From positions 124,001 through 188,000 of the forward strand of contig NZ_CP113054.1 in assembly GCF_026625605.1 (NCBI RefSeq): 64,000 nucleotides of DNA. Reading direction: 5' to 3'. Source of the stretch: Luteolibacter sp. SL250 (lineage in GTDB: Bacteria; Verrucomicrobiota; Verrucomicrobiia; Verrucomicrobiales; Akkermansiaceae). Shown one piece after another: positions 166-45,426 of this stretch; position 1 is the first letter of the stretch, and the number at the start of each line of letters is the position of its first letter. The translations under genes and the position numbers were made by a program. The notes beneath the pieces are model-generated. The model was not told the origin of the DNA. It saw nothing but the letters and a program-made list of their open reading frames with translations, and made no database searches.

Positions 166-2964
166 CTACTCTCCGATACGGAGCTGGAAGAAATTCTTTC
201 CACCACCAAAGGGATCCGAGCCACGGATGGGAATGCCGATGTGGCGGAAATCTCCGGCGGACTGGAACAAGGCGGGTGCCGGCAGGGTGGGCGTGCGCTG
301 CCAGCCGGTGAGGTTGTCAGACTCCCACACCTCCATCTTCATGCCGTTGGCCCGCTGGTGGCGGCGCAGCAGCAGGTAGAGCTTTCCGTCCTGCGCCAGC
401 AGCCGGGGGCGCGCGTCCGGCCCGCCCGCTCCGGAGAAAAACTCCACCAGGTTCGCCACGCCATCACCATCCGGGTCCGCACCGGGTCCGGAAACCTGCG
501 GGTCCGCCAGTTGCGCCGCATCGAACCGTCCGAACCTCCACGCGTCGAACGGCGGGTCAACCAAGGTCACGGTGGCGGAGACATCCGTGCCGAGGAAATA
601 GGCGGTGGAAGGACTGATGGTGACGGTCACCGTGCGTTCCCCTGCCGGCACGGCCGCCGCCGGCGCGCCGACGGACACCACCAGTTGGCTGACCCCGGCC
701 GGGATGGTGATGGAGGCGGGAAATGACGGCGACAGCTCCGACGGGGCCGCCGTGCCGCCGCGCGCGACGTCCACCACCAGCGGGTTGTCCAGCGTGCCGT
801 TCCGCGAGATGATGAACTCCGCCGGCACGCGCCCACCGCGTGTGGTGGTGGGAATGAGCGGCGTGACGCTGACGATGTTGTCCGGGCCGGGCATCGCCCA
901 GCGCGCGGCATCCGCGATGACATACTCGTCGGCTCCGGTGGTCTCGATAAGGAGGCTGCCGGAGTTGGAACTGCCCGCATTGAACTGGAAGGTTCCCAGG
1001 CTCACCCACTCGTTGCTGTCCTGTTCCTGGTCGATGCGGACGAAGTGGCTGCCACCGTTGTGGAAGACGGTGACGGGAACATTCTTCGCGCGGTTCCCCT
1101 GGGCGGGCCAGCGGAGGTACACGGTGTAAGTGCCGGAGACGGGCAGGTCCGGAACGAAGCGCACGGATTTCGTTCCCTGCCCGGTGTTTCCATCCGACAG
1201 GTAGTTTTTCCCGTAGAAGCCGGACTGGGAGGTACTCTCCGTCCACTGGCCGATCTTGATGGCGTTCGGGTCGGCATTGTCGACGATGGTGCTGGTGCCC
1301 GGGCCGCCGTCGGCGTTGGTGGTGAGCGCCTGACCGTCAGCCCGCATCTTCACCACCAGCTTCGCGTAGGGAACCTGCTGCACGGTGAGGCCGTCGTCGA
1401 TGGCGATGGACGCGGCGGTGGCGGACGACTGGCCCAGCCCCATGAACACCGGCTCCATGCGGATGGAGCCGAACGCCATGTGGGAGGCTGACAGGCACCA
1501 GGGGACGAGGAGGTTTTCGCACTCCCCCTGCTTCGGCACGATGGAACGGTAGGAGATCGGATACGGTCCGTTGGTGGGGTCCTGGACGTCGCCCTCGTTG
1601 CGGACGAAGCCGTCCACGTTGACGTAGCGCTGCACATGGTGGGAGTCCATGGTGTAGGCGGCCATGCCGACGGAGTCCGGGGCGATCTCCGAGCCACGGC
1701 AGTTCTTCGTGCTCATGACGTAGTCGGAAACCATCCGCCGCGCCTCGCGCACGTAGAGCTGGTAGGGCCAGTTGCCGTTGTCCGCGAACTCGTCCTTCGG
1801 CAGGCCCCAGGTGGGGTAGAGGCCGTTGGTGTGGCGGGCGCGCACCCGGGGGTGGTTCTGCAGCGTCCAGATGAGGCCGCGCTGCCAGTTTTCATGCTCC
1901 TTCGCCAGCGCGGCGCGCTGGGCGTGGCTGAGGGTGGCCCAGTTCCAGTCCGGCCCGTAGTTCCGCCCGATGTAGTCGGTGGAGACGGCACCCGTGTTGT
2001 TGGAGTCCGTCTTGCGGTTGGGCATCAGGTCCAGCTTGAAGAAATGGTTGCTCTGCCCGGCCTCCACGGCCCGCAGGAGCAGCTCGTAGTTGGCGGCGTC
2101 ATACCCCGGCGGCTGCGCCACCGGCACGCGGTTCGACTCCCGGTCGGTGAGGCACATGCGGAAACAATAGGCCTGCAGCCGGTGGTCCGCCGTGCCGTTC
2201 CCGGCGACGGACGGCTCGATGCCCGGGAGCAGGCCGCTGGCCGGATTTCCCGCGATCCGGTAGGCACTGATGCTGGCGAGGTTGTTGGTGAAGTTGTGGT
2301 GCCCTTTCCCCACCTGCACGCCGCTGTTGTCCTCCCCGTAGACGTTGTTGTCCTCCCGGCCGATGAACCAGCTCACGCCGGCACCGGCCATGACGTCGCC
2401 TTCGTAGGACGCGTCGATGAACATCTTCCCGCGGTAGGTCTGCCCGTCCTCCATCCGCAGGCCGGTGATGCGCAGCCCGTCCAGGACCACGCCGTCATCC
2501 AGATCCAGCAGGCCGGTGAAGACGGGCACGTTCCACTCGGAGAGCATCGTGTTGAAGACGGCTTCCGCCACCTTCGGCTCGAAGATGGAGGCGACCTGCG
2601 TGGTGTGGTTGAACGCCTTGGCCCCCTGCCCATTCATGTCCTTGATCTGGTCCCAGATGTCTTGCTGCTGGGAGTAGTGGGTATAGACCCGGTGGTAGAA
2701 CTCGCGGCTGAGCCCGCCGAGGATGGCGGTGCTCCCCAGGTCCGTCCACCCCAGGCCGCTGGAGGTGAGGCCGCCGAGGTGGGGGGTGGGGGAAACCAGC
2801 GCGACCTTCTTCCCCAACTTCGCCGCCTGGATCGCCGCGGTGATGCCGCCGGAGGTGCCTCCGTACACAACGATGTCGAACTCATCCGGATGCGCGTGCA
2901 GCGCACCATGGAGGAGCGGGAACAGGAGCGCGGCGAACGCCCCGGCCCGGCCGGTGGATTTCAT
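166..2964 (-). CDS. Secreted FAD-dependent oxidoreductase with golvesin-like and Verrucomicrobia C-terminal domains
   Basis: 932 aa. Residues 1-24 are a signal peptide. Residues 31-50 hold the dinucleotide-binding motif (GGTSGG followed by ITAAIQAAKLGKK), followed by HLGGLTSSGLGW, as in the FAD_oxidored (PF12831) family; further on EGDVMAGAGVSW and YVREARRM are typical of it. From about residue 570 there is a golvesin/xanthan-lyase-type beta domain (SGTYTVYLRWP, YVIADAARW), then a Calx-beta-like stretch (about 705-800), then a tail with DPDGDGVANLVEF around residue 830, common at the C-terminus of exported Verrucomicrobia proteins. The substrate is unknown; relatives occur in polysaccharide-use loci. 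It is the first gene of a short minus-strand unit with the SGNH hydrolase. A shorter paralogue lies at 39870-41474. Confidence 0.85.
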   Translation of the reverse strand: MKSTGRAGAFAALLFPLLHGALHAHPDEFDIVVYGGTSGGITAAIQAAKLGKKVALVSPTPHLGGLTSSGLGWTDLGSTAILGGLSREFYHRVYTHYSQQQDIWDQIKDMNGQGAKAFNHTTQVASIFEPKVAEAVFNTMLSEWNVPVFTGLLDLDDGVVLDGLRITGLRMEDGQTYRGKMFIDASYEGDVMAGAGVSWFIGREDNNVYGEDNSGVQVGKGHHNFTNNLASISAYRIAGNPASGLLPGIEPSVAGNGTADHRLQAYCFRMCLTDRESNRVPVAQPPGYDAANYELLLRAVEAGQSNHFFKLDLMPNRKTDSNNTGAVSTDYIGRNYGPDWNWATLSHAQRAALAKEHENWQRGLIWTLQNHPRVRARHTNGLYPTWGLPKDEFADNGNWPYQLYVREARRMVSDYVMSTKNCRGSEIAPDSVGMAAYTMDSHHVQRYVNVDGFVRNEGDVQDPTNGPYPISYRSIVPKQGECENLLVPWCLSASHMAFGSIRMEPVFMGLGQSSATAASIAIDDGLTVQQVPYAKLVVKMRADGQALTTNADGGPGTSTIVDNADPNAIKIGQWTESTSQSGFYGKNYLSDGNTGQGTKSVRFVPDLPVSGTYTVYLRWPAQGNRAKNVPVTVFHNGGSHFVRIDQEQDSNEWVSLGTFQFNAGSSNSGSLLIETTGADEYVIADAARWAMPGPDNIVSVTPLIPTTTRGGRVPAEFIISRNGTLDNPLVVDVARGGTAAPSELSPSFPASITIPAGVSQLVVSVGAPAAAVPAGERTVTVTISPSTAYFLGTDVSATVTLVDPPFDAWRFGRFDAAQLADPQVSGPGADPDGDGVANLVEFFSGAGGPDARPRLLAQDGKLYLLLRRHQRANGMKMEVWESDNLTGWQRTPTLPAPALFQSAGDFRHIGIPIRGSDPFGGGKNFFQLRIGE

Positions 2965-3198
2965 ATGGGTTTTCGGATTTCCGGCGGGATGGGTTTTTTT
3001 TGCCGGAATCCGGGGATTCTCCGCGTGCGGGGCCGCCGTTCAATGAAAATGTTCTACCACCGCCGGTAGGGCTGGCCCGGCCTCGGGCCGCCGAAGCTGT
3101 ACGCCGGGAGGATTGCGCGGCTCCATTCATCATCTCACGTCACCCGCCTGCACGCCGAAAGCCACGGCGCGCCCAGCGGTCGCGACCCTCCCGTTTTT

Positions 3199-37140: not shown

Positions 37141-39231
37141 ATGTCCCGCCGCTTCCATTTCCTGGTCATCCCCGCCATCGCGGGTGCGCTCCAGGCCCAG
37201 CCTGTGGCACCGCTGCCGGTCATCACGGAGGCGAAGGAACTCCATCGGCTGACCCGCGCGGAGACGCTGCTGCCCCGGCAGGTGAAGATCCGCGGCGTCA
37301 TCACCTACAAGCGCGGGGACGAGTTCAATGACTTCGCCATGCAGGACAGCACCGGCGGCTTCATCGCGGACGTGCAGACCGCCATCCCCATGACCCAGTC
37401 CCTGCAACCCGGGCAGGAGATCGAGATCGAGGGGTACACGGTGATCGACCCTCCACCGGCGCCGCGGATCAGCGTCACCCAGATGAAGCCCGGCCCCATC
37501 GTGGGGCTTCCGGCGCCGCTGCCCGTCACCCCCCAGTCCCTGCTCGGCGGGGCGGGTGTCTTTTCCTACGTCGAGTTCAGCGGGGTGATCCGCAGCACCC
37601 GCATCGAGCGGGATCTCAACCCCCACCGGCTGGTCCTCGACCTCGGCCCGCCGGACCAGCGCCTTGCCGTCAGGATCGCCCGCTTTGATGATGACACCAT
37701 CTCACGCCTCACGCCGGACACCCGGGTGCGCGTGCGCGGCACCGCGCTGGCCTGGACCAGCGTGAACCTCCAGCCCTACTCCATCTTCATCGGCGTCCAT
37801 GATGCCGCACAGGTGGAGGTGCTGGATGGCACACGGAATCCCACCGACATCCCCCTCACGGAATTCGGAAAGCTGGTTTCCTCCCACCCGGAGGGATTCG
37901 ACGCCCGCCGGGAAAAGCTCCACGGCGTCGTCACGCTCAACTGGCCCGGTGAAATGGTCGTTGTCCAGGGCAACGGCGGGGCCATCCGCGCCATCCCCGC
38001 CGGAGAGACGCGTTTCCAGGTCGGGGACGAGGTGGATGTCGCTGGTTTTTCCTCTGCGGAAGGTGGGCGGATCTTCCTGGACGAGGCGGTGTTTTCCAAT
38101 GTCACACCAGGCAGGCTGCCCGCAGCGGAGGAAGTCGAAATCAGCCGCCTGAAGGTGGAGGCCGGCACGGCTGACCGTGAAGCACACCGTGTGCGCGTGA
38201 CCGGCTCCCTGATGGAAATCACCCGGCGGGACGACAATCCGATGCTGAAACTGGAATGGAACGGCAGCACGTTCGACGTGCTGATGCGTGCAGGCACCCA
38301 GATTCCGCAGGATCTCCGGAAGGGGGCGGTCCTGGAAGTCACCGGCGTCTGCCACTACCAGCTCGGGGAGACCGCCCGCAAGTTCGCCATCCGGCTCGAC
38401 GGCGTGGAGATCCACCTTGCGGAAATGGCGGACATCCGGATGCTTTCCGCGCCCCCATGGTGGACGCCCGCACGGCTGGCCATGGTCATCGCCGTCATCC
38501 TTTTCATCCTCGGCCTGTCCCTGTTGTGGGTGGTCGCCCTGCGGCGGCGGGTGGCCGTCCGCAGCGCCATGCTGGTCCGGGAGATCCGCGCCAGGCATGA
38601 CACGCAGCTCCTCGTCTCAGAACGGTCCAGGCTCGCCGCCGACCTGCACGACACGCTATCCCAGACGCTCTCCGGTGCGGCGCTGCAGATGGAAATCGCG
38701 GACTCGATGGATGACACCACCGCCACCTCCCACCGGGAACTCGCCCGCCGCCTGCTGGACCGCAGCCGTGAGGATCTCCGCCGGGCCGTCTGGGACCTGA
38801 CCCCCAGCGTGCTGCTCAACCAGGACCTGGGCGGGGCGTTCCGCTCCATCGCGGAAGAGGTCTCCGCAGAGCACACCTGCGAGGTTCGCATCGACGCCCC
38901 GGAACACCTTCCCGCCCTGCCGGAAAGGACCCGCTCCCACCTCCTGCGGGTGGGTCAGGAAGCCATCCACAACGCCATCCGCCACGGCGGTGCGGAAACG
39001 GTCACCGTCTCCCTCCTGCCCGACGAAGGTGGTGTGCTCCTCCGCGTCTGGGATGATGGTTCCGGTTTCGACCCCAGCCGGGCCCCCGGCCCCACCGACG
39101 GCCACTTCGGCCTCAGTTCCATGCGCAACCGCATCCAGCGCCTCGGCGGCACCTTCACCATCAGATCCTCTCCCCGCGGCACCACCGTCACCGCCACCGT
39201 CCCCATCTCACCGATGTCCGAAGATTCATGA
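37141..39231 (+). CDS. Sensor histidine kinase (HisKA_3 type) with large periplasmic beta domain
   Basis: 696 aa. A short signal anchor (RRFHFLVIPAIAGALQA), then about 420 residues of repeated beta units of OB-fold look (PRQVKIRGVITYKRGDEFND, FSYVEFSGVIRSTR, REKLHGVVTLNWPGEMVVVQ, ARKFAIRLDGVEI). Membrane helix RLAMVIAVILFILGLSLLWV. Then the HisKA_3 dimerisation helix with phospho-acceptor His503 (SRLAADLHDTLSQTLSGAAL) and a HATPase_c domain (VGQEAIHNAIRHGGAETVTV, DDGSGFDPSR, FGLSSMRNRI). NarX/DegS-type kinase. Stop overlaps the regulator gene start (ATGA). The signal sensed is unknown. Confidence 0.9.
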   Translation: MSRRFHFLVIPAIAGALQAQPVAPLPVITEAKELHRLTRAETLLPRQVKIRGVITYKRGDEFNDFAMQDSTGGFIADVQTAIPMTQSLQPGQEIEIEGYTVIDPPPAPRISVTQMKPGPIVGLPAPLPVTPQSLLGGAGVFSYVEFSGVIRSTRIERDLNPHRLVLDLGPPDQRLAVRIARFDDDTISRLTPDTRVRVRGTALAWTSVNLQPYSIFIGVHDAAQVEVLDGTRNPTDIPLTEFGKLVSSHPEGFDARREKLHGVVTLNWPGEMVVVQGNGGAIRAIPAGETRFQVGDEVDVAGFSSAEGGRIFLDEAVFSNVTPGRLPAAEEVEISRLKVEAGTADREAHRVRVTGSLMEITRRDDNPMLKLEWNGSTFDVLMRAGTQIPQDLRKGAVLEVTGVCHYQLGETARKFAIRLDGVEIHLAEMADIRMLSAPPWWTPARLAMVIAVILFILGLSLLWVVALRRRVAVRSAMLVREIRARHDTQLLVSERSRLAADLHDTLSQTLSGAALQMEIADSMDDTTATSHRELARRLLDRSREDLRRAVWDLTPSVLLNQDLGGAFRSIAEEVSAEHTCEVRIDAPEHLPALPERTRSHLLRVGQEAIHNAIRHGGAETVTVSLLPDEGGVLLRVWDDGSGFDPSRAPGPTDGHFGLSSMRNRIQRLGGTFTIRSSPRGTTVTATVPISPMSEDS

Positions 39232-39854
39232 AAAAACGCATCCGCCTCCTGCTCGCGGATGATCACGCGATCGTCCTTGCCGGCCTCACCACGCTGCTTT
39301 CCCTCGAACCGGAAATCGAAATCTCCGCCACCGCGGAGAGCGGCGAGGAAGCCGTCACCCGCTACCGTGAAGCCCGGCCGGATGTCGCCCTGCTCGACCT
39401 CCGCATGCCCGGCATCGACGGCGTGGAAGCCGCCGCCCGCATCCTCAGGGAATTTCCGGACGCGCGCATCCTCATCCTCACCACCTTCGAGAGCGAGGAG
39501 GACATCCACCGCGCCCTCCAGGCCGGGGTGCGCGGCTACCTGCTGAAGGAGTCGAAACGCCCGGACCTGCTGGCCGCCATCCACGCCGTGCTCGCCGGAA
39601 ACCGCTGGCTGCCCCAGCCCATCGCCCGGCTCGCCGCGGAGCGGGCGAAGCAGCCCGGACTTTCCGCACGCCAGCTCGAGGTGCTGGATCTGGTCTCGAA
39701 AGGCCTGACCAACAAGGAGATCGGCGCCATCCTCGGCTTCAGCGCGGAGGGGGCGAAGCAACATCTTCATCAGATTTACCAGAAACTCGGCGTATCCACC
39801 CGGGCCGAAGCCACCGCCGAAGCACTCAAGCGCGGCATCCTCAGACCCGACTGA
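39228..39854 (+). CDS. Response regulator, NarL/FixJ family
   Basis: 208 aa. Receiver domain with LLLADDHAIVLAGL (acidic pocket) and phospho-acceptor Asp57 in VALLDLRMPG, then LKESKRPDLLAAIHAVLAG. C-terminal LuxR-type helix-turn-helix LSARQLEVLDLVSKGLTNKE then IGAILGFSAEGAKQHLHQIY. Cognate of the upstream kinase by 4-base overlap. The FAD oxidoreductase gene follows 15 bases later and is a plausible target or co-transcribed gene. Confidence 0.93.
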   Translation: MKKRIRLLLADDHAIVLAGLTTLLSLEPEIEISATAESGEEAVTRYREARPDVALLDLRMPGIDGVEAAARILREFPDARILILTTFESEEDIHRALQAGVRGYLLKESKRPDLLAAIHAVLAGNRWLPQPIARLAAERAKQPGLSARQLEVLDLVSKGLTNKEIGAILGFSAEGAKQHLHQIYQKLGVSTRAEATAEALKRGILRPD

Positions 39855-41474: not shown

Positions 41475-41537
41475 GCGGCATATCTCCCCCGCACTCCTGT
41501 CCTCCGGCGGCATTGGCAAAAAAGAAGGAAAAGTTTT

Positions 41538-41670
41538 CAGTGTTCAGTTTTCAGGGAAGAGAAGAAGGCTGACCGCGAATCCTCCGAGCAATGCGAACTT
41601 GAAGAGGTCCACATGGAATCTTTGCGCATTCTTCGCGTCCTTTGCGTCTTTGCGGTGAATCTTTGATGAT
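41538..41670. repeat. Intergenic region with common low-complexity motifs
   Basis: TTTTCAGTGTTCAGTTTTCAG at 41537-41557 and TTCTTCGCGTCCTTTGCGTC near 41632 followed by TTTGCGGTGAA are stock strings of a kind seen between genes in many environmental genomes. No gene was seen in the 268-base gap. Confidence 0.5.
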
Positions 41671-41684
41671 TCGCCAATGCCGCC

Positions 41685-41738
41685 GGTGGACAAGAATGGG
41701 AGCGAAGCGGACATAGCGGCTCTGCCGCAATGTCCACC
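41685..41738. terminator. Hairpin at the end of the MNIO operon
   Basis: GGACATAGCGGC (41709-41720), loop TCT, GCCGCAATGTCC (41724-41735), with an outer GGTGGACA at 41685-41692 able to pair with TGTCCACC at 41731-41738. The stem is strong but lacks a T run. It lies between the convergent ends of the FAD oxidoreductase and BufC-like genes and could end either transcript, or be another REP-like palindrome. Confidence 0.45.
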
Positions 41739-41742
41739 CTCC

Positions 41743-42651
41743 TTACTCCTCCCCCATCGCCACGGCCTGCGAGCCCATCTTGTCGAGGCCGTTCCAGTCC
41801 ATCTCCTCCACCGCCTGCTTCCTCGCTGGCATGAAATCGATCACATCTCCCTCCGGCGCGGTGGCGATCCATCCCCGCGCCTGCCAGGCGGCGAACCATG
41901 CGGAAATTTCCTCCGGCTCCGGTTCACGGCTCGCGGGTTCGGCGAACACACCCTCCAGCGTGCCGCCCTTCCGCAGCCGCTCCAACAGCTCGTACTCCAC
42001 ATCATCCAGACGGCACTGGAGCCGCCCGCGGTTTTCCCCGCGCCAGACGGCCAGCCGCGTCACGGCTTCCTCCACCGGCGTGAATGATTCCCATTCCTCG
42101 CACAGGTCAGCGGGCACCGGCAGTTCCAGCAGGATGACATGCGGCTGCAGGCCCAGCACCGCCGTGGCCAGGTCTTCCGGCGCGACCGGCTCCCAGTCCG
42201 CCGCTTCGAAAATTTCCATGTAGGCATACTCGATCCGTGCGAGCGCGGAAAACCACCGCCGCTCCGTTTCATCCAGCACCTCCCAGCCCGCGACGAACTC
42301 CGGCATCTTCCGCCCGAGGTGCCGCAGCGTGAAACTGCCGGACGGACAGGCCACCATGTAAGCCTCCATCAGGTCCCAGAACACCTGCTCCCCCGCCATC
42401 TTCCGCAGCACCGGAAAATCCTCAGCCACGGAGTCCAGCACCCGGAACCAATACTGTCGGTGGTAAAGCTCCAGCCGCTCCTCGGAGGAAAGGTTCTCGC
42501 CCGGCTTCATCAGTTCCCGTGCCTTGGCCAGGAACTCCTCAGCATGGCCGTCATCGTTCGGCGTCAGTTCAGTGCTTTCCCGGCTGGTGCCACGCAGCGG
42601 CATCTGGATGGCGGCGAAAAACTCGCGCTGCAGTTCATCAAGCGGCTTCAT
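41743..42651 (-). CDS. DUF2063 partner protein of an MNIO enzyme (HvfC/BufC-like)
   Basis: 302 aa from MKPLDELQREFFAAIQMPL. The N-terminal DUF2063 domain (PF09836) is clear: EERLELYHRQYWFRVLDSVA, EDFPVLRKMAGEQVFWDLME, AYMVACPSGSFTLRHLGRKM PEFV. In this family the protein binds the RiPP precursor and hands it to the DUF692 oxidase. The C-terminal half (EYELLERLRKGGTLEGVFAE, WFAAWQARGWIA) looks like a winged-helix-type precursor-binding domain. It overlaps the DUF692 gene by 14 bases, so the two are co-translated, as in known buf/hvf operons. Confidence 0.88.
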   Translation of the reverse strand: MKPLDELQREFFAAIQMPLRGTSRESTELTPNDDGHAEEFLAKARELMKPGENLSSEERLELYHRQYWFRVLDSVAEDFPVLRKMAGEQVFWDLMEAYMVACPSGSFTLRHLGRKMPEFVAGWEVLDETERRWFSALARIEYAYMEIFEAADWEPVAPEDLATAVLGLQPHVILLELPVPADLCEEWESFTPVEEAVTRLAVWRGENRGRLQCRLDDVEYELLERLRKGGTLEGVFAEPASREPEPEEISAWFAAWQARGWIATAPEGDVIDFMPARKQAVEEMDWNGLDKMGSQAVAMGEE

Positions 42652-43501
42652 GATCCCCCCTCTTCTCCATCGCGGAGGCCCGCCATGTTTCCGACTTCCG
42701 CGCCTCCGTCCACACCTCCTCGAACGACGGGATCCGCCCGTCCCACTCCAGCAAGGTGGCCACATGCCCGCATCGCTCGATGGCGCGTTCATAGAGCTTC
42801 CACACCGGATCGATCACCGGGTGGTCATGCGTGTCCACGATGAACCGTTCATACCGCGAGTGCCCCGCGATGTGGATCTGCGCCACCCGCTCCGGCGGCA
42901 CGAAATTGACATACTCCAGCGGGTCGAACCCGTTGTTGATGGAGGAAACGTAGATGTTGTTCACGTCGAGCAGGATGCCGACGTCCGCCAGCTCGCACAC
43001 CTCCGCGAGGAACTCCCACTCGGTCATCTCGTTGCCGTTGAACTCGCCGTAGCTGCTCACGTTCTCCATCGCCAGCGGCGTTTCCAGGAAGTCCTGCACC
43101 ATCTTCAGGTTCTCCGCCGTTTTCCGCGCCGCCTCGAAAGTGAAAGGGATGGGCAGCAGGTCATGGCTCATGCGGCCATCCACACTGCCCCAGCAAAGGT
43201 GGTCGGACACCCATGGCGTCTTCGTCCGGCGGACCAGCCGCTTCAGCCGCTGCAGGTGGTCCCTGCTCACGCCGCCCGCATTTCCCGGATACAGGCCAAC
43301 CCCGTGCTGCACCACGCGGTACTGCTCCAGGATCATGTCCAGAACCTCCAGCGCGCGCCCGCCCTCCACCATGTAGTTTTCCGAAATGATCTCGAACCAC
43401 CCGACCGCGGGTTTCTCAGAAAGGATGTGCTGGTAGTGCGGCACCCGCAGGCCGATGCCCGTGGCAAGCTCCACTCCGCCGGTGAATTTCGACGCACTCA
43501 T
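42638..43501 (-). CDS. DUF692 multinuclear non-heme iron oxidative enzyme (MNIO; HvfB/BufB/MbnB family)
   Basis: 287 aa. TIM-barrel MNIO. Typical segments: GIGLRVPHYQHILSEKPAVG, WFEIISENYMVEGG, VVQHGVGLYPGN, TPWVSDHLCWGSVDGRMSHD, LAMENVSSYGEFNG, GILLDVNNIYVSSINNGFDP, and QIHIAGHSRYERFIVDTHDH, where the His, Asp and Glu iron ligands of the family lie. Known members modify cysteines in RiPP precursors to oxazolone/thioamide or 5-thiooxazole, producing copper-binding peptides. Here the gene lies 69 bases after the precursor gene, beyond an intrinsic terminator. Confidence 0.93.
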   Translation of the reverse strand: MSASKFTGGVELATGIGLRVPHYQHILSEKPAVGWFEIISENYMVEGGRALEVLDMILEQYRVVQHGVGLYPGNAGGVSRDHLQRLKRLVRRTKTPWVSDHLCWGSVDGRMSHDLLPIPFTFEAARKTAENLKMVQDFLETPLAMENVSSYGEFNGNEMTEWEFLAEVCELADVGILLDVNNIYVSSINNGFDPLEYVNFVPPERVAQIHIAGHSRYERFIVDTHDHPVIDPVWKLYERAIERCGHVATLLEWDGRIPSFEEVWTEARKSETWRASAMEKRGDHEAA

Positions 43502-43520
43502 CCCTGTTGGTGGTTCCGGG

Positions 43521-43559
43521 AAAAAAGAAACCCCGCGGCACGGTGGCGCGCCGCGGGGT
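43521..43559 (-). terminator. Intrinsic terminator/attenuator between precursor and MNIO genes
   Basis: A perfect 10-base stem ACCCCGCGGC (43530-43539) and GCCGCGGGGT (43550-43559) with a 10-base loop, followed on the minus strand by TTCTTTTTT. It starts 11 bases after the precursor stop. Partial read-through would give much precursor mRNA and little enzyme mRNA, the ratio a RiPP operon needs. Confidence 0.85.
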
Positions 43560-43570
43560 CTCCGTGAAAA

Positions 43571-43852
43571 TCAGAGAATGGTGCCCTTCTTCTCTTCTTC
43601 CTTCTTCTTGCCGGGGCAGTCATCCTTGTCCTTCTTGTCCTTGCCGGCGATGAGGGTGCCTTCCTTCTTCTTCTCCTCTTTCTTTTTGCCGGGGCAGTCG
43701 TCCTTCTCCTTCTTGTCCTTGTTCGGGCAGTCGTCCTTTTTCTTCTCAGCGGCGACGGCCTTCTCCTGGAGAGGGGCGGCGGTGACGACGTTGGAACCGG
43801 CGGCGAGGACTCCGGCGACGGCGGCTGCAACGAGTGCGTTGGTGGCTTTCAT
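43571..43852 (-). CDS. Secreted Cys-containing RiPP precursor (BufA/HvfA-like position, new core type)
   Basis: 93 aa. A signal peptide (MKATNALVAAAVAGVLAAGS, cut near VTAA-PLQ) is followed by a highly charged region of Lys, Asp and Glu. Three cysteines, at 42, 53 and 79, each sit in DDCP(N/G)K: KKDDCPNKDK, EKDDCPGKKKEE and DKDDCPGKKKEE. The second and third units each end in a GT-hydrophobic patch (KKKEGTLIAG, EEKKGTIL). The place, first in an operon with DUF692 and DUF2063 genes, and a Sec signal used as leader, match bufferin and HvfA systems. The cores known to me are EGKCG repeats (HvfA) or the four-Cys DUF2282 (bufferin 1); this one is neither. Expected to be secreted and to bind a soft metal, probably copper. 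Confidence 0.82.
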   Translation of the reverse strand: MKATNALVAAAVAGVLAAGSNVVTAAPLQEKAVAAEKKKDDCPNKDKKEKDDCPGKKKEEKKKEGTLIAGKDKKDKDDCPGKKKEEEKKGTIL

Positions 43853-43983
43853 TTGGGTTCGGTTGTTTTCTTTGGTTTTAGCGTGGAAGCCGGACACGCA
43901 TCCGCACCCGGCTCCATCCGCACTATTAGCACGAATTTCCCCGGCGCGAGAGATTTCCTCAGCCACCCCCCGGAAATTTCTCC
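43853..43983 (-). promoter_or_regulatory. Probable promoter region of the RiPP operon
   Basis: 131 bases without a gene between the cardiolipin synthase stop and the precursor start. On the minus strand TGCTAATAGTG, about 70 bases before the ATG, is a possible -10; no good -35 was fixed. The 5' leader before the ATG is A-rich (CTAAAACCAAAGAAAACAAC). Confidence 0.35.
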
Positions 43984-45426
43984 TCACTGCACCGGTGCCA
44001 GCAACTTCGCCAACCGCGCCCCCACCCGGAAGTGGAACGGCCTGCGGGTGAAGTCCTCCACCGTCTCCTCCGCGCAGTTCCGGAAGTCCTGCTCCAGCAT
44101 CTCCGTCACTTCCCGGATGAATTTTTTGTCCGAAGAAAATGCCATGATTTCGAAATTCAGGCGGAACGACCGGTTGTCCAGGTTCGCCGATCCCACCGCC
44201 GCCAGCCGTTCGTCGATGAGCATCACTTTCTGGTGCAGAAAGCCGGTCTGGTAGCGGAAAATTTTCACTCCGAAGGGAATCGACTGCTCGTAGTAAGTGA
44301 ACGCGGAAAGCCACACCAGCAGGTGGTCGGCCCGTTTCGGGATCATGATCCGGACATCCACCCCACGGATCGCCGCCGCCTGCAGCGCCGTCATCACCCC
44401 CTCATCCGGCACGAAATACGGGGACGCGATCCACAACCGTTCCCGGGACGAGTTCGCCGCCTCCGCCACCATCAGTTGCCAGGAGTCCAGCTCGTCCGCC
44501 GGGCCGGTCGGGATGATCGCGGCGATCTGGTCGTCGTCCTCCACTTCCTTTTCCCACGTCAGGTCCAGGAAATGGTCCGTCGCCCAGTGCCAGTCCTGCA
44601 GGAACACGAGCTGCAGCGCCTCCACCGTGGGGCCGCGCATCATCAGGTGCGTGTCCCGCCATTTCCCGAACTTCTGCGCCCGCCCGAGGTATTCGTCCCC
44701 CACATTGATGCCGCCGATGAAGCCAAGCTCGCCGTCGATCACGACGATCTTCCGGTGGTTGCGGAAATTCAACTGCAGCCGGGAGTACCACATCCGGTTC
44801 GTGCCAAAGGATTCACAATGCACCCCCGCCTCCTTCAGCTCCCGCAGGTAACGCCGGGGCAGCTTGCTGGAGCCGATCTCGTCGAACAGGAACCAGACGT
44901 CCACCCCTTGCCGCGCTTTCTCGATGAGGAGCTGCTGGAACTTGATGCCGATGCGGTCGCTTTTGACGATGTAAAAGTTCACGCAGACATACCGCTCCGC
45001 CGCCCGGATGGCGGAGAAGATGGCCTCGAAGGTTTCCTCTCCGTCGATGAGCAGCTTGAGCGAGTTCCCGCGCGTGAAGGGCAGCCCGCCCAGGTAGCGT
45101 GCGGTGCGGGCGAAGGCATCGTCCCGCGGGATCTCCACCTCGCGGATGGCCAGCTTGTCATAGATGGAGGCGGCCAGGCGGCTCATCCGGCTGTCGTCGT
45201 TCCGGCGCGCCCTCACGTAACCCTCGAACCGCGTCCGTCCCAGCAGCCAGTACAGCGGGATGGCGACGTAGGGGAACGTCAGCAATGAAATCACCCACGC
45301 GATGGTCCCCTGCGACGTGCGCACGTGCATCACCGCATGGATGACATGGACCAGGCCCAGCACATGGAGGGTGGCCACCCCCGCGATACCTAGCCAAGCC
45401 ATCACCTCCGGACTGATCAATGCCAT
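43984..45426 (-). CDS. Cardiolipin synthase, phospholipase D family
   Basis: 480 aa from MALISPEVMAWLGIAG. Two N-terminal membrane helices (ATLHVLGLVHVIHAVMHV, AWVISLLTFPYVAIPLYWLL), then two PLD domains with HKD motifs HRKIVVIDGELGFIGGIN and HQKVMLIDERLAAVGSANLD. It joins two phosphatidylglycerols (ClsA/ClsB type) to cardiolipin in the inner membrane. Length fits ClsA-like enzymes. It is directly upstream of the RiPP operon on the same strand. Confidence 0.92.
   Translation of the reverse strand: MALISPEVMAWLGIAGVATLHVLGLVHVIHAVMHVRTSQGTIAWVISLLTFPYVAIPLYWLLGRTRFEGYVRARRNDDSRMSRLAASIYDKLAIREVEIPRDDAFARTARYLGGLPFTRGNSLKLLIDGEETFEAIFSAIRAAERYVCVNFYIVKSDRIGIKFQQLLIEKARQGVDVWFLFDEIGSSKLPRRYLRELKEAGVHCESFGTNRMWYSRLQLNFRNHRKIVVIDGELGFIGGINVGDEYLGRAQKFGKWRDTHLMMRGPTVEALQLVFLQDWHWATDHFLDLTWEKEVEDDDQIAAIIPTGPADELDSWQLMVAEAANSSRERLWIASPYFVPDEGVMTALQAAAIRGVDVRIMIPKRADHLLVWLSAFTYYEQSIPFGVKIFRYQTGFLHQKVMLIDERLAAVGSANLDNRSFRLNFEIMAFSSDKKFIREVTEMLEQDFRNCAEETVEDFTRRPFHFRVGARLAKLLAPVQ

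Follow-up and report, generated by a model that had tools for sequence, protein, structure and literature searches.

Three genes lie together on the minus strand of the window, the stretch of 64,000 nucleotides of Luteolibacter sp. SL250 that was analysed here, and the initial annotation had read them as a RiPP operon built around an MNIO (DUF692) enzyme. The three open reading frames were found again over the span that had been given, in the order precursor, MNIO and DUF2063 partner (Table 1), with a gap of 69 bases between the first two genes and an overlap of 14 bases between the last two. Pfam searches of the neighbouring genes placed a FAD oxidoreductase and a PLD-family protein at the flanks, and the claim that no DoxX gene adjoins the operon also held, the three DoxX matches of this genome being located elsewhere, away from the operon. 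Directly 3' of the operon is a dispersed, MITE-like repeat some 220 bases long, whose inverted ends form arms of 36 nt (81% complementary); the same genome has 76 match pieces for it, of which about 20, besides this copy, are near full length. A histidine kinase (HisKA_3) and a LuxR-type response regulator form a pair upstream of the FAD oxidoreductase.

Table 1. Features of the operon and its surroundings, in positions of the window.
Feature	Position	Strand	Basis or location
Precursor gene, 93 aa, 3 Cys	43571-43852	minus	ORF and translation
MNIO gene (DUF692), 287 aa	42638-43501	minus	PF05114, NF050167
DUF2063 partner gene, 302 aa	41743-42651	minus	PF09836
Terminator-like hairpin, 17-bp stem and T run	43526-43563	minus	precursor-MNIO gap
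Upstream region with degenerate element TGCTAATA	43853-43990	minus	alignment of 13 loci
Dispersed repeat, MITE-like	41485-41705		
Histidine kinase and response regulator pair	37141-39854	plus	

The precursor begins with what looks, judged by eye, like a typical Sec-type signal at about residues 1-25, followed by three [D]DCP[N/G]K units set in linkers rich in Lys, Glu and Asp, and it ends in Ile-Leu. The three Cys stand in the contexts DDCPNK, DDCPGK and DDCPGK, so that every one of them is followed by Pro. The sequence confirms the earlier remark that EGKCG is absent, and the remark that there is no DUF2282 agrees with the lack of any DUF2282 match at E<=10. No Pfam or NCBIfam family scored above its cut-off, the bufferin models of both collections included, and the BufA2 model NF050166 gave no match at E<=10. 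CbtA was considered as a family for the precursor and rejected (22 of 30.7 bits, below threshold and mostly over the signal region). A single-sequence structure model is disordered and of low confidence (pLDDT 55.5). Compared with the near relative G141, the precursor differs by one amino-acid-changing and five silent codons in 91 (dN 0.005, dS 0.091), the MNIO has a dN of 0.003 and a dS of 0.224, and the DUF2063 partner a dN of 0.036 and a dS of 0.345. The precursor is under purifying selection, and this conservation, together with the recurrence of clustered units in other genomes (see below), speaks against a chance ORF.

The enzyme belongs to the MbnB_TglH_ChrH family (PF05114, E=1.8e-100, Pfam). 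Among the NCBIfam models it passes NF050167 for MNIO_BufB with 330.6 bits against a cut-off of 310, and it stays far below the cut-offs of HvfB, ApyH, ChrH (58 of 600 bits) and MbnB; at 35.5 of 325 bits with TIGR04159, it is not of the methanobactin MbnB type. Directly after the catalytic Asp254 comes Gly255, which we refer to as the gate site. In an alignment with 3bww this residue lies opposite the Phe of 'RDF', and in the accessible text of PMC13097082 the corresponding residues are Phe250 in FonB and Asp251 in BufB2, Cys-Lys substrates going with Asp at this site. The second protein, the partner, contains a DUF2063 domain (PF09836, E=5.5e-15, Pfam) and an RRE-like domain, which is the PME1 layout. 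It had no sequence match in the PDB at E<=1 and remained under the cut-off of the HvfC model NF050145 (41.6 of 142 bits). Its AlphaFold model (pLDDT 89.2) had 3dee, 8hci_A and 8hi7_A as best PDB matches, and the predicted fold resembles the PME partners NGO1945 (3dee, a gonococcal PME1) and TglI.

The hairpin between the precursor and MNIO genes has a free energy of -34.9 kcal/mol and a z score of -5.6. Similar hairpins were present in 35 of 100 precursor-MNIO gaps examined, against 1.55 expected from mononucleotide shuffles, and by type of gate residue they were found in 30 of 81 Asp, 4 of 10 Gly and 1 of 9 Ala loci. The hairpin is probably an attenuator holding the enzyme below the peptide, and the terminator between the genes would probably leave more precursor than enzyme. 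About 95 bases ahead of the start codon, the relatives carry an element, TGGAATAA, which is exact in 9 of 13 aligned loci; the exact form occurs in neither the window nor G141, and the window has only the degenerate form. A sigma-70 promoter scan of positions 41480-44100 found none. A dedicated ECF sigma factor was tried as regulator of the operon and set aside: it is present in related operons (L008, by Pfam), but a search of 23 genomes at E<=1e-20 found it in 3 and in 0 of the 9 Cys-Pro genomes. Sister operons at four loci (L008, L151, L152 and L154) have three further genes inserted between the precursor and the MNIO, for DoxX, for an ECF sigma factor and for a small Cys protein, and at two others (L010 and L011) DoxX sits after the DUF2063 partner. 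The Cys-Pro loci examined have only the precursor, the MNIO and the DUF2063 gene as their common set. The small protein lying between the ECF sigma factor and the MNIO (L008, 5531-5989, and its equivalents in L096-L101) has three or four Cys and may be called anti-sigma-like from its position alone.

Relatives of the locus were collected by a contig scan, which gave the best 80 of 564 relatives (the nearest named records being Akkermansiaceae MAGs and Haloferula sp. BvORR071), and by searches that yielded 30 of 244 genomes of the family (E<=0.001) and 30 of 387 genomes of the phylum (E<=1e-60), two samples that overlap. Loci with an MNIO identity of at least 55% were kept and enzymes identical over residues 20-250 were collapsed, which reduced 145 to 118; G141 was collapsed out of this set and is counted apart. 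It had been asked of the small ORF whether it is present at other DUF692 loci, and it is: a precursor gene stands directly before the MNIO gene in 111 of the 118 unique relatives by the filter used, and the repeated core lies beside an MNIO gene in nine genomes of nine. Among the seven loci left without a precursor by the filter, L018 does have one, and one locus of the set (L088, from G064) is truncated where its contig stops. The reading of the three genes as an MNIO RiPP operon is supported by their sequences, by the fold of the partner and by this association across relatives. Ahead of more distant MNIOs (46-48% identity; L104 and L105) lies a gene for a protein of about 230 amino acids, at positions 2346-3035 of the minus strand in L104. 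The protein starts in a Tat-like manner (SRRDFIKTF in L104) and contains a HSCEGGNSCKGLGACGTG stretch; the L104 protein had no Pfam match.

The relatives, which are found in Verrucomicrobiota and Acidobacteriota, have mostly BufA2-like 'CKGK' precursors, the majority being of the type KHxCKGxNxCKGxGGC...CKGKGGC. Against the BufA2 model NF050166, with its cut-off of 60, precursors of Asp-type relatives scored 36-42 bits (three tested) and that of L002 scored 18 bits, and those of L003, L004, L010 and the window gave no match. Read as a series, these sequences link the Cys-Pro core stepwise to BufA2/Cys-Lys precursors. Since the relatives are mostly of the 'CKGK' kind, the window precursor seems to have branched off from the Buf2 (Cys-Lys) lineage and to have drifted far from it.

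The window MNIO falls in a clade of 20 rows (SH-aLRT 97) whose members have Ala or Gly at the gate, and in which the position after Cys has loosened and takes Lys, Ser, Asn, Asp, Glu or Pro. At eight unique loci within it (nine genomes with G141) all units read (D/E)D-C-P-(G/D/N)-K, and all 31 Cys of the eight have Asp before them, Pro after them and Lys at +3. The 87 Asp-type loci have Lys after Cys in 410 of 522 cases, and the sole Pro among these counts comes from the mis-set start of L027. A codon pattern for DDCP(G/D/E)K, which leaves EDCP and DDCPN units uncounted, was clustered (at least two matches) in 9 of the 244 genomes of the family, always next to a Gly-type MNIO, one of these genomes (G064) having part of the precursor on another contig end. 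A single isolated match occurred in each of 16 further family genomes, and no genome outside the family had more than one match in the sample of 387 from the phylum. Three genomes (G039, G064 and G079) have both a Gly-type locus with Cys-Pro units and an Asp-type MNIO at a Cys-Lys locus with DoxX nearby. Across the sampled genomes, the repeated Cys-Pro core goes exclusively with MNIOs of the Gly type.

In the other direction, the link between a change from Asp to Gly or Ala and the core is loose. Lys is in the minority after Cys at 14 of 24 loci without Asp at the gate, against 1 of 87 with it (111 loci), and the Cys-Lys majority is kept at the other 10 of the 24, several of them Ala-type. Two loci inside the Cys-Pro clade, L002 and L009, have a Gly gate and MNIOs of 91 and 89% identity, and their cores are CSGK/CKGK, so Gly permits Pro and does not demand it. 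Parsimony counts five losses of the gate Asp, and an independent-pairs test for dependence of Pro on Gly had two supported pairs, one agreeing and one without difference (p=1), a number with which significance is out of reach. The precursors of the Ala/Gly clade (n=19) end in Ile-Leu in 18 cases and in Ile-Ile in one, and each repeat contains a short hydrophobic patch, for example TVLAG or LVISG; these ends and patches might possibly be a recurring docking tag.

On balance, we favour the view that the operon encodes a periplasmic metal-buffering RiPP system of the MNIO-PME1 (captophorin/bufferin) kind, of Buf2/Cys-Lys descent, whose core has been rebuilt to (D/E)D-Cys-Pro-x-Lys repeats. The DUF2063/RRE partner would grip the precursor through its signal region, and the di-iron MNIO would perform a four-electron oxidation of each Cys to a 5-thiooxazole, with a loss of 4 Da each and of about 12 Da for the three. 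The ring would be formed with the amide N-terminal to each Cys (that of Asp-Cys) because proline offers no N-H, and Gly, where Cys-Lys enzymes have Asp, would make room for the proline. The modified peptide would be exported by Sec and would bind copper, or another soft metal, through the thiooxazole S/N and the neighbouring Asp. Buffering of copper or another metal is plausible by descent from Buf2-type operons. Perhaps the system buffers or senses something besides copper instead, such as another metal or oxidative or sulfur stress: there is no copper gene among the operon neighbours examined, the Asp side chain of the ring and the acidic repeats would make a different ligand set, and non-copper roles are discussed in PMC12452194. 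We consider this rather unlikely, however, given that the characterised MNIO-PME1 products described in the available text of PMC13097082 bind copper.

The MNIO-PME1 pairs so far studied install 5-thiooxazole, according to the accessible parts of PMC13097082 and PMC13419390, and the former presents two proposed routes, one through an azetidinone intermediate (a four-membered ring, which needs the N-H after Cys) and one in which the amide preceding Cys attacks directly. Proline lacks the N-H in question, and a modified Cys-Pro would therefore leave only the direct route. The best-studied enzyme, FonBC, tolerates no Pro at any tested position (PMC13097082), so the enzymes of the Cys-Pro clade must differ from it. 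That this Verrucomicrobiota clade moved from Cys-Lys to Cys-Pro by replacing the Asp next to the catalytic base with Gly, giving an MNIO which oxidises a Cys whose next residue lacks the amide N-H, is a proposal whose chances we judge to be evenly balanced. Alternatively, proline could block the usual ring route and the Cys be oxidised to something other than 5-thiooxazole, that is, to a new MNIO product. The intolerance of FonBC would fit with this, as would the residues that set the window clade apart (the gate, and others such as Asn190, where 93 of 93 Asp-type enzymes have His) and the several MNIO products already known (PMC12452194). We find this improbable, since the MNIO scores as BufB, every position read as a metal ligand, and the catalytic Asp too, is the same in all 118 unique MNIOs, enzymes 89-91% identical serve cores without Pro, and the direct route does not require the missing N-H (PMC13097082). 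That the Cys-Pro repeats stay unmodified and bind metal through thiols and acidic residues, with the MNIO acting on another, unlinked substrate, would suit the low acceptance of Cys-Pro by FonBC and the known cases of precursor genes distant from MNIO genes (PMC12452194), but it is quite improbable given that the repeated core was seen only next to an MNIO gene (nine genomes of nine), that the apparent signal peptide, unit spacing and gene order are unchanged from the Cys-Lys operons, and that the genome (G000, 4.92 Mb in one contig) has one PF05114 match.

If the Cys-Pro product is 5-thiooxazole, the azetidinone route is not obligatory; if it is not, MNIOs would have a further, new product whose ring bears an Asp and which possibly serves another metal. 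A natural enzyme with all its target Cys before Pro could separate the two routes in one experiment. The clade is also ready material for studying the choice of Cys, as near-identical enzymes serve Cys-Pro and Cys-Ser/Cys-Lys and three genomes have both types. This is a real operon of sharp mechanistic use.

The initial annotation had called the core of a type not known to it. In favour of this, a string search of the main texts in the open literature found no MNIO paper containing the core motif strings, and Acidobacteriota and Verrucomicrobiota are absent from the text of the leading MNIO papers; within the same scope we did not find a description of the Cys-Pro branch. The claim stands less well for the lineage, in view of the stepwise link to BufA2/Cys-Lys precursors and of the hundreds of further small Sec/Cys ORFs preceding MNIO genes that PMC12452194 reports. 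The Cys-Pro arrangement, the Asp-to-Gly change of the enzyme and the hairpin in the precursor-MNIO gap go beyond what that annotation had noted. These lists of ORFs, together with 'NACKG', a 5-mer tested in PMC13097082 that occurs in Cys-Lys relatives here, indicate that the wider family is partly catalogued.

With the Buf2 bufferins (BufA2B2C2) and the Cys-Lys captophorins, the operon shares the A-B-C order, an apparent Sec-type signal, the BufB-type MNIO and the DUF2063 partner, and those of its relatives whose cores are CKGK give weak matches to the BufA2 model. It differs from this group in a precursor with 3 Cys rather than 6 or 12 and without a BufA2 match, in a Pro where Lys would follow Cys, in an Asp ahead of Cys, in the lack of an adjacent DoxX, and in Gly instead of Asp beside the catalytic Asp. 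Short Cys repeats in an apparently secreted peptide and an MNIO with PME1 are features in common with the EGKCG captophorins (oxazolin HvfABC and fontiphorin FonABC); the window has no EGKCG, however, and Lys-Cys enzymes have Phe at the gate (RDF in 3bww). The Buf1 (DUF2282) bufferins likewise combine an MNIO and PME1 with a Sec signal, which the window precursor appears to have as well, but the window precursor has no DUF2282 match. The chryseobasins (ChrH, motif CPACGMG) also have Cys-Pro within an MNIO substrate motif, but the proposed starting point of oxidation by ChrH is the other Cys, the one before Gly (PMC10214503, accessible text). Finally, adjamnio-3 of PMC12452194 and the remaining small Sec/Cys ORFs that its Table S2 lists ahead of MNIO genes, compared here by their description only, are similar in having a Cys peptide with apparent secretion and a DUF2063 partner, and an overlap with the Cys-Pro core is possible. 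The operon is real, and it combines the known layout of an MNIO-PME1 operon with an unusual core.
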